Of a stretch of 64,000 nt of DNA, positions 9,606 through 11,247 are shown in pieces (positions within the stretch are counted from its first letter, which is position 1; each line of letters begins with the position of its first letter). Below the pieces are notes generated by a model. It did not search any database, had not been told where the DNA came from, and worked only from the letters and a program-made list of their open reading frames with translations. The DNA comes from Thermoplasmata archaeon (GTDB lineage: Archaea > Thermoplasmatota > Thermoplasmata > Lutacidiplasmatales > UBA184), in the NCBI GenBank assembly GCA_022750115.1, contig JAKIWI010000005.1, positions 62,001-126,000 on the forward strand, given 5' to 3'. The translations under genes were made by a program, and so were the position numbers.

Positions 9606-9613
9606 CTATTTAG
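9606..9613 (-). promoter_or_regulatory. TATA-like promoter of the sulfoquinovose cluster
   Basis: CTAAATAG on the minus strand is centred about 26 bp upstream of the UDP-sulfoquinovose synthase ATG, the spacing of a leaderless archaeal promoter. It overlaps the stop codon of the preceding aquaporin gene, so the glycan cluster has its own promoter and need not depend on the arsenic operon. Confidence 0.6.
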
Positions 9614-10283
9614 GCTGTTCTCGGGCGCGTCGCCGGTCCCACCATCGAACGAACCCGACCGCGACGAGGGCCGCCACCGGAGGGGCGACGAAGTAGACCC
9701 AGAGGTCGGTGTAGACTCCGGAAAGGACCGCCGGGGCGAGGGTCCGGGCCGGATTCAGCGAGCTCCCCGTCCAGGGACCGATCAGGTACGTGGACGCGGC
9801 CACGGCCAGCCCGGGCCATGTCAATCGCCACCGCACTCGCCCGGCGCCGAACCGCACCAGGGCGAGCACCGACGCGAGGAGTAGGAACGTGAAGGCGAAC
9901 TCGAGGAGGAGGGCGCGGGGGACGTCGCCTCCGGACGGCACGGTTGCCCCCAGCCCGTGGGAGTTCCCAAACATCGCAAGGACCGTCGCGCTCCCCAAGA
10001 ACGCTCCCGCGACCTGGGCCGCGACGTGGGGCGCGATCTCGGAAGTGGGGAGTCGTCGGTCGGCCACGAGTGCCAGCGTCACCACCGGATTGAGGTGGGC
10101 GCCCGAAATCGAGGCGAACAGCGCCACCGGAATCGTCACGGCGAGGAACCATGCGACGGCCAGGAGGAAGTACCTCCCGCCGACGACGGAGGAGGTCGCA
10201 ACGATCGCGCCGGTGCCGATTCCCACGAGGAGCGCGGTCCCGACAGCCTCGGCCAGGAGGCGCTTGGCCAGGGGGTCGCTCAC
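9606..10283 (-). CDS. MIP-family channel (aquaporin/aquaglyceroporin, AqpS-like context)
   Basis: This 225-residue membrane channel has six hydrophobic helices and two half-helix motifs: SGAHLNPVV (NPV, a variant of NPA) and TGSSLNPAR. Such channels pass water, glycerol or uncharged metalloid hydroxides. Its GTG start overlaps the arsC stop by four bases (GTGA), so the two proteins are translationally coupled. In Sinorhizobium an AqpS channel next to ArsC exports arsenite produced by reduction of arsenate, taking the place of ArsB or Acr3. The same arrangement here, with no ArsB or Acr3 gene nearby, suggests arsenite efflux by inference. The selectivity residues were not modelled, and ordinary water or glycerol transport is the alternative. 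Confidence 0.85.
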   Translation of the reverse strand: MSDPLAKRLLAEAVGTALLVGIGTGAIVATSSVVGGRYFLLAVAWFLAVTIPVALFASISGAHLNPVVTLALVADRRLPTSEIAPHVAAQVAGAFLGSATVLAMFGNSHGLGATVPSGGDVPRALLLEFAFTFLLLASVLALVRFGAGRVRWRLTWPGLAVAASTYLIGPWTGSSLNPARTLAPAVLSGVYTDLWVYFVAPPVAALVAVGFVRWWDRRRAREQPK

Positions 10284-10720
10284 GGGGATTGGTCGCTCGT
10301 CCGGACGGTGGCGTCCAGGCGAATCTCCTCGATCAGGGAAGCGATCCGGCGGGCAATCTCATCGCGCACCTTCCGAAACCCGTCGTCATCGAGCTGGGCC
10401 GGGTCGGCGAGTCTCCAGTCCCGCAGCGGTCGAGCCTTCAGTCGGGCGGGACAGCTCGCGTCGTCCAGGCAGCCCATGGTGATCACGAGGGCCGCGCCAT
10501 CCATCGATTCGGGAGTGAGCTCTCGCGGAGCGTGGCCGGGAAGCGAAAGGCCCACCTCCCGAAGGAACCGTTCCGTCCGTGGGTTCGGGCGGGCCGCCGG
10601 CCGCGTTCCCGCGGACTCGGCGACCCAACCCGCGGGCGCCTTCGCGGCGAAGATCGCCTCGGCCATCAGGGACCGACACGCGTTCTCCACACAGACGAAC
10701 AGCACCCGTCGGTCGTCCAT
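10280..10720 (-). CDS. arsC: Arsenate reductase, low-molecular-weight phosphatase (thioredoxin-coupled) type
   Basis: This 146-residue enzyme reduces arsenate to arsenite. MDDRRVLFVCVENACRSLMA contains the CX5R active-site loop, and MGCLDDASC supplies the second pair of redox cysteines that relay electrons to thioredoxin, followed by the DWRLADPA stretch with the catalytic Asp. This is the Bacillus/Staphylococcus ArsC architecture. A longer reading starting at 10819 would add a poly-leucine leader, but that leader is the GCTGCTG tract read in the wrong frame. The ATG at 10720 overlaps the TGA of the cysteine-rich peptide (TGATG) and is preferred. The end overlaps the aquaporin start, so the operon order is peptide, arsC, aquaporin. 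Confidence 0.88.
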   Translation of the reverse strand: MDDRRVLFVCVENACRSLMAEAIFAAKAPAGWVAESAGTRPAARPNPRTERFLREVGLSLPGHAPRELTPESMDGAALVITMGCLDDASCPARLKARPLRDWRLADPAQLDDDGFRKVRDEIARRIASLIEEIRLDATVRTSDQSP

Positions 10721-10827
10721 CAGCCCTTTCCGCAGCAGCCCGCGCGTCCGTCGGACGCCGCGCTCGTGCTCCCGCCACTGCAGCAACAGCAGCAGCAGCA
10801 GCACGAGTTCGCGCAGCATTCGCTCAT
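10720..10827 (-). CDS. 35-residue cysteine-rich peptide with eight consecutive cysteines (arsenic operon)
   Basis: This short frame was found by reading the leader of the arsenic operon directly. It encodes 35 residues beginning MSECCANS, followed by eight cysteines in a row (residues 9-16), a Ser/Gly/Ala spacer and a final GCCGKG. Twelve of 35 residues are cysteine. A strong Shine-Dalgarno sequence, GGAGGTG, lies three bases before the ATG at 10827, and the stop overlaps the arsC ATG as TGATG, so translation is probably coupled. It is the first gene of the operon, directly behind an inverted-repeat operator. The cysteine content suggests thiol binding of arsenite or another soft metal, as in metallothioneins. 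That function is inference. The tract is also a TGC trinucleotide repeat interrupted once by TGT, so its length could vary. Confidence 0.7.
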   Translation of the reverse strand: MSECCANSCCCCCCCCSGGSTSAASDGRAGCCGKG

Positions 10828-10839
10828 GGGCACCTCCGT

Positions 10840-10868
10840 CACTTCAAGGACTGAAGTGGTTATCAACC
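10840..10868. promoter_or_regulatory. Shared divergent promoter and inverted-repeat operator of the arsenic cluster
   Basis: CACTTCA (10840-10846) and TGAAGTG (10852-10858) form a perfect 7-bp inverted repeat with a 5-base spacer. It abuts GGTTATCAACC (10858-10868), which contains TTATCA, a TATA-like box readable in both directions. The box is 26 bp before the GTG of the HxlR-type regulator. On the other strand it would start transcription just ahead of the Shine-Dalgarno site of the cysteine-rich peptide. A repressor on the repeat would block the minus-strand transcript between TATA box and start site. Confidence 0.65.
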
Positions 10869-10887
10869 GCCGCTACGTACGCCCGAA

Positions 10888-11247
10888 GTGGCCTCCGAGT
10901 GCTGTGAAGCGGAGTTTGAGTGTCCCTGTCCGCCCATCGGGCTCGTGGATGTCGTCGGGAAGAAGTGGGCGATGTGCGTCGTGACGCTCCTCGGCCGCAA
11001 CGGCACGCTCCGGTTCGGCCCGATTCAGCGGTCGCTCCCGAGGGTGAGCCCCGCGACTCTCACCGCAACCCTTCGTGCCCTCGAGCGCGAACGATTGCTT
11101 CGGCGGACCGCGGAGTCCAAGGTCCGGGGCGCCGCCGTCGAGTACGACCTCACGCCACGCGGCGTGAAGCTCTACGAGAGCCTGCTCCCACTCGCCGCGT
11201 GGCTACGGGCGGGAGAAGCGCCCCGGGGCGCGATCCGCGCGGCGTAG
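10888..11247 (+). CDS. HxlR-family winged-helix regulator with cysteine-rich N-terminus
   Basis: This 119-residue protein has the HxlR/MarR-like winged-helix fold: GLVDVVGKKWAMCVVTLL, then FGPIQRSLPRVSPATLTATL (recognition helix region), LRALERERLLRR and a wing ending VEYDLTPRGVKLYESLLPL. Its first 16 residues are MASECCEAEFECPCPP, with Cys-5, -6, -12 and -14, and another Cys lies in the first helix. This density of cysteines is unusual and suggests a thiol-based metal or arsenite sensor. The gene is divergent from the peptide-arsC-aquaporin operon, and the 60-bp spacer holds a perfect inverted repeat, so it is probably the local repressor. The GTG start lies 26 bp from the TATA-like box, consistent with a leaderless message. 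Confidence 0.85.
   Translation: MASECCEAEFECPCPPIGLVDVVGKKWAMCVVTLLGRNGTLRFGPIQRSLPRVSPATLTATLRALERERLLRRTAESKVRGAAVEYDLTPRGVKLYESLLPLAAWLRAGEAPRGAIRAA

Follow-up and report, generated by a model that had tools for sequence, protein, structure and literature searches.

The window, that is, the whole stretch of 64,000 nucleotides of archaeal DNA analysed here, carries on its minus strand a short Cys-rich frame, a putative arsenate reductase gene and a channel gene in tandem, and on its plus strand a divergent regulator gene. The features of the locus are as follows.

9606–10283, minus strand: gene for an aquaporin-family (MIP) channel (Pfam MIP, 6.9e-36).
10280–10720, minus strand: arsC, for an arsenate reductase of the low-molecular-weight-phosphatase type (Pfam LMWPc, 7.1e-24; CX5R at 10–16).
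10720–10827, minus strand: Cys-rich peptide gene of 35 codons, with 12 Cys, eight of them consecutive, and 29 homologous places in relatives.
10831–10837, minus strand: Shine-Dalgarno site GGAGGTG, three bases 5' of the peptide ATG.
10840–10858, no strand assigned: conserved palindrome CACTTCA-GTCCT-TGAAGTG (CACTTCA-N5-TGAAGTG), presumed HxlR operator.
10860–10866, minus strand: TTGATAA, presumed TATA element, CTTATNA-like in relatives, as judged from 29 promoters compared.
10873–10880, no strand assigned: block GTACGTAG beside the TATA-like element, conserved among the 29 promoters compared.
10888–11247, plus strand: divergent gene for an HxlR-type regulator with a Cys-rich N-terminus (SECCEAEFECPCPP; Pfam HxlR, 1.2e-17).

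Translation of 10827–10720 on the minus strand gives MSECCANSCCCCCCCCSGGSTSAASDGRAGCCGKG followed by a stop, with residues 9–16 being Cys only, and seven of the eight codons of this run are TGC. The TGA of the peptide (10722–10720) and the ATG of arsC (10720–10718) have one A in common. The original prediction had described a frame of this length and Cys content, its Cys run, its Shine-Dalgarno site and its TGA/ATG overlap, and all of these were confirmed on re-reading the sequence; the longer arsC reading with a poly-Leu leader, which it held to mask the peptide, does exist, at 10819–10280. Downstream, the ArsC of the window carries an active site from C10 to R16 (CX5R) and a second Cys pair, Cys 84 and 90. 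Its best PDB match is the arsenate reductase 1y1l, and 14 of its 18 PDB matches bear the name arsenate reductase or ArsC; it falls below the NCBIfam ArsC cut-offs, with 60.9 bits at best versus 215. From its context and its relatives we infer that it reduces arsenate. The GTG start of the aquaporin gene overlaps the arsC stop by four bases. The divergent regulator contains an HxlR winged-helix domain (Pfam HxlR, 64 bits versus a cut-off of 20.8), and the palindrome is presumably its operator. Regulator (10888–11247) and palindrome apparently occupy the place where an ArsR would be expected; at four places lacking the peptide (L017, L020, L127 and L128), the DNA preceding arsC resembles, by eye, the end of an ArsR-type gene.

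Searching for the promoter-operator pattern with two mismatches allowed revealed 29 operator places in 26 of the 78 genomes of the same genus, and with three mismatches the pattern was found in 35 of 103 genomes of the same family, representing four of seven genera; a control with the operator pattern reversed had no match in either the 78 or the 103 genomes. The first gene after the 29 genus operators was the Cys-rich peptide at 20 places, ArsM at four (L032, L043, L053 and L059) and neither at five, one of these five having a 24-residue frame with two Cys. In the genome G080 (L043/L060), peptide and ArsM each have an operator of their own. At L167, a frame of 14 residues, MIGKNCGCKNPREC, comes after the operator and may be a remnant or a minimal form of the peptide, and at L008/L046 no divergent HxlR gene was found, a tRNA-like 3' end lying upstream instead (by eye).

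Altogether, we located the Cys-rich peptide at 29 places in 27 of the 103 same-family genomes, about a quarter, which is a lower bound because genera other than that of the window were searched by operator and TGY run only. These comprise 22 places in 21 genomes of the genus, including two (G081 and G061) that came from TGY-run and arsC searches beyond the operator search, and seven places in six of 25 genomes of other genera. A profile search built on the peptide alignment had low sensitivity, recovering places in seven of the 78 genus genomes, all known already from the operator search, and DNA patterns were therefore used instead. The homologous peptides measure 22–42 amino acids and contain 5–15 Cys. 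Their starts, picked within 4–23 nt of the operator core, lie 10–16 nt beyond it and are ATG at 27 places and GTG at two, and GAGG or GGAG precedes the start at 23 of 29. A divergent HxlR gene adjoins the peptide gene at 26 of the 29 places and arsC lies directly behind it at 27, the exceptions being G080, in which the next gene is ArsM with its own operator, and G012. A script found the peptide stop to overlap a candidate arsC start, by one or four bases, at 20 of these 27 places, and a further overlap was read by eye from the junction in G061. In L058, the match to the arsC behind the peptide is split in two, and this gene copy looks broken. As a Cys-rich frame recurs at the same spot in relatives, we take the peptide to be probably a real gene, whose frame is predicted to be translated. 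The original claim of a hidden peptide gene at the head of an arsenic operon thus gains support from the same family, and it withstood the conservation check on close relatives, the Cys-rich frame being kept at 29 places.

The homologues differ in how their cysteines are arranged. The motif CPPGCC occurs in 12 of 29 peptides and a run of at least five Cys in 10, with runs of 8–9, the longest seen, occurring at this locus, and the two kinds grade into each other, so that the eight-Cys run of the window is one variant. On a tree of weak support, the poly-Cys trait changed at least five times. That Cys number is kept while the motif is lost suggests that the number of thiols matters most in the peptide. 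An exact-pattern scan of named genomes with CPPGCC(D/E)xCC, which is blind to the poly-Cys kind, gave nine stretches, seven being Thermoplasmata or Euryarchaeota metagenome-assembled genomes with the operator. The scan also touched a Planctomycetota frame (L072, 5592–5621) with CPPGCCDNCC in a Cys-rich stretch and, by eye, a secretion signal, and a Micromonospora frame that was judged to be a chance match.

Chance is a poor account of these frames. When the window frame was dinucleotide-shuffled 2000 times, it never stayed open with at least 12 Cys, and shuffles that were open and reached the observed Cys count were likewise absent (0/2000) for 28 peptides and numbered 1/2000 for the remaining one, G267. 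It is hardly conceivable that the run is an untranslated CTG/TGC repeat, as the predominance of TGC among its codons might suggest: TGY runs of at least seven codons, in any frame on both strands, occur at five places in five of the 78 genus genomes, all five inside the peptide gene, and 19 of the 29 same-spot homologues, although rich in Cys, have no run as long as five. The homologues strongly contradict the repeat reading. Among 400 genomes of the class, such runs were present in 20; seven belong to the peptide locus, two of these being from a different genus in the family, and the other 13 lie in other contexts, a second TGY-run place in G104 being left out of this comparison. None of the 13 had ArsC, HxlR, ArsM or aquaporin within 1.5–3 kb of flanking DNA, and ten sit opposite a longer poly-Gln frame (by eye). 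The reversed TGY pattern matched in five of the 400 class genomes and in none of the 78 genus genomes.

The shifted frame that corresponds to the poly-Leu arsC reading is open in 14 of the 29 homologous genes and the other shifted frame in 27, and because the DNA is GC-rich, frame openness alone is little proof. However, DNA alignments of eight chosen pairs of peptide genes kept the frame at every site, and the differences at codon positions 1, 2 and 3 numbered 52, 44 and 82, each of 236, the third position varying most. In a CPPGCC-like block of 16 peptides, with one near-duplicate excluded, pN/pS was 0.35 versus 1.65 and 1.33 in the shifted frames, the first value being biased low by the choice of the block by its motif. 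Hydrophobic residues make up 3.1% of 583 non-Cys residues, versus 7.0% in same-codon shuffles (minimum of 1000: 4.3%). The conserved frame at the operon head bears signs of protein-level constraint, and its non-Cys residues, too, look constrained. A very unlikely explanation is that the frame is a translational coupler only, recruiting ribosomes for arsC by means of residues that hardly matter; the overlap of stop and start, scored by script at 20 of 27 places, would suit such a role, but the Cys content exceeds that of shuffles in 29 of 29 peptides (with the single exceptional shuffle in G267), differences are in excess at the third codon position, and at five operator places of the same genus both a Cys-rich peptide and ArsM are missing.

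Since the original prediction had also proposed an attenuator, we weighed whether translation of the Cys codons might sense charged tRNA-Cys or thiol status and tune arsC by translational coupling. A short frame with many Cys codons whose stop, at 20 of 27 places, overlaps what may be the start of arsC fits such a leader, as do the strong fold of the window transcript (10700–10838) through the TGC run (z −4.0) and, in the clade of four to which the window belongs, the end of the Cys run 17–19 codons ahead of the stop. Archaeal transcription starts some 25 nt past the TATA element, and by this spacing the presumed 5' leader would be very short, about 10 nt. A T-run of at least five is absent from 28 of 29 loci, and the ten peptides that contain at least five Cys in a row differ in the distance from run to stop, which varies from 2 to 19 codons. 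We dropped the RNA-hairpin idea because five homologues, chosen from 28, do not show the fold of the window: with z between −0.5 and +1.7, their RNAs fold only as well as shuffled sequences. The gene to be regulated, arsC, is directly downstream at 27 of 29 places but not in G080 and G012, and the apparent constraint on non-Cys residues also speaks against a leader. There is precedent in short polycysteine frames of mycobacteria, which are described as Cys-responsive (Canestrari et al. 2020, as cited in PMC9094748). On the short leader, the missing T-run, the fold not seen in the five homologues compared and the two copies without arsC, the attenuator claim is disfavoured; we consider a Cys-sensing leader improbable, and less likely than an arsenite-binding peptide.

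Metallothioneins are small, about 20–30% Cys, with few aromatics and with CC clusters. The 29 peptides agree with this composition, being small, with Cys at 292 of 904 residues and F, W or Y at six. Nevertheless, none of the 20 of 29 peptides scanned matched a curated metallothionein family in NCBIfam, a Pfam scan of 20 of the 29 gave Keratin_B2_2 only, in two of the 20 (best E 0.0017), and a PDB profile search with the peptides gave no family match; the window peptide itself had no match in Pfam or NCBIfam. Among the matches listed for open-licence papers, no such peptide was named in titles or abstract openings. Thus, no curated family appears to fit the peptide well, and the family seems to be so far unrecorded in the libraries searched.

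In the 78 genus genomes, arsC is present in 65, arsM in 30 and Acr3 in 16, and, judged by coordinates, each of these 16 Acr3 genes follows arsC on its strand at a distance of no more than about 610 bases. At 29 arsC places with ArsM directly ahead, a Cys-rich frame in between was found at none. ArsM was found in 4 of 21 peptide genomes versus 26 of 44 other arsC genomes (p = 0.003), Acr3 in 2 of 21 versus 14 of 44 (p = 0.067, not significant alone), and either of them in 6 of 21 versus 34 of 44 (p = 0.0003), all with relatedness ignored; these genome-level associations may track clades, and many genomes are incomplete. ArsM and the peptide occur together in four genomes. The exit gene at 26 peptide-arsC places is an aquaporin at 23, Acr3 at two and unknown at one, and at the 14 HxlR-linked arsC places without the peptide it is an aquaporin at six, Acr3 at seven (read by hand from coordinates) and neither at one; the aquaporin/Acr3 ratio is thus 23/2 with the peptide versus 6/7 without it (p = 0.003, relatedness ignored). 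The existence of these 14 places, one of which has a 24-residue frame with two Cys and another a 14-residue frame with three Cys, indicates that the peptide is dispensable.

We also considered that the peptide might act as an arsenite chaperone that hands As(III) on to the Cys-rich HxlR, ArsM or the channel, or as a redox partner that takes the place of thioredoxin in re-reducing ArsC. With HxlR start codons guessed and relatedness ignored, extra N-terminal Cys residues were counted in HxlR at 23 of 26 peptide loci versus 1 of 14 arsC-first loci without the peptide (p = 6e-7); they were also present at both ArsM-first loci, and adding these gave 23/26 versus 3/16 (p = 9e-6). However, because the tree offers only one or two supported independent pairs, this link between peptide and HxlR cysteines is not established beyond clades, and in G080 and G012 arsC does not lie directly behind the peptide. 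We regard this role as unlikely.

Taken together, the evidence leads us to favour, with moderate confidence, a metallothionein-like peptide in an arsenate-detoxification operon that would bind and buffer the arsenite made by ArsC; arsenite sequestration was also among the roles named in the original prediction. The peptide would be the first gene of the operon, followed by arsC and the aquaporin gene, with the divergent HxlR-type regulator presumably repressing the promoter at the palindrome, its putative operator. In the presence of arsenic the operon would open, and the ribosome would translate the peptide and then, via the stop/start overlaps, ArsC and the channel. ArsC would turn arsenate into arsenite within the cell, and the thiols of the peptide would bind it and buffer it until its exit through the passive channel; with three thiols to each As(III), 12 Cys could accommodate about four. 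An internal thiol sink should count most where no pump or methylase exists. AqpS, a channel of this type, has been called bi-directional (PMC4435449). We favour this reading because the peptide is one-third Cys with few hydrophobic or aromatic residues, because genomes with ArsM or Acr3 have it less often, and because two copies (G080 and G012) have no arsC behind them. Against it we count the lack of a match to a known metallothionein family, the dispensability of the peptide, the non-significant result for Acr3 by itself, the four genomes in which ArsM and the peptide coexist, and the fact that Cys would be selected under Cys sensing or ArsC recycling too.

Although arsenic operons are well catalogued, this component is so short that gene calling can miss it, and if the peptide binds arsenite, these archaea own a gene-encoded thiol sink. 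Eight to nine consecutive Cys at one homologous locus are also unusual material for metalloid-thiol chemistry. More tentatively, the peptides could form a new family of ars-operon peptides that is the archaeal gene-encoded counterpart of phytochelatins, a thiol carrier of arsenite in which the number of thiols and not a fold is selected, with the Cys-rich HxlR as the sensor.

Metallothioneins are gene-encoded Cys-rich metal-binding peptides and phytochelatins are thiol peptides made by enzymes (PMC3600143). Like metallothioneins, the ars peptide is small, with about 30% Cys, CC clusters and few aromatic residues; unlike them, it has no family match, lies in an ars operon coupled to arsC and has runs of up to nine Cys, and its metal binding is here a prediction. 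Phytochelatins bind arsenite, and the ars peptide would share with them the proposed role of a thiol sink, whereas it is encoded by a gene. With the polycysteine frames of mycobacteria it has in common a short frame with many Cys codons ahead of another gene, but it is led by a Shine-Dalgarno site, its non-Cys residues are apparently constrained, its context is an ars operon, and two copies lack a downstream arsC. The AqpS operon pairs an aquaporin with ArsC and ArsR. This aquaporin-type ars operon of Sinorhizobium meliloti (PMC4435449) resembles the present one in its aquaporin-family exit, whereas here the regulator is of the HxlR type and a Cys-rich peptide is added. Finally, ArsD, the arsenite chaperone of some ars operons, is likewise an arsenite-binding Cys protein encoded in an ars operon, but it is much larger than the ars peptide.
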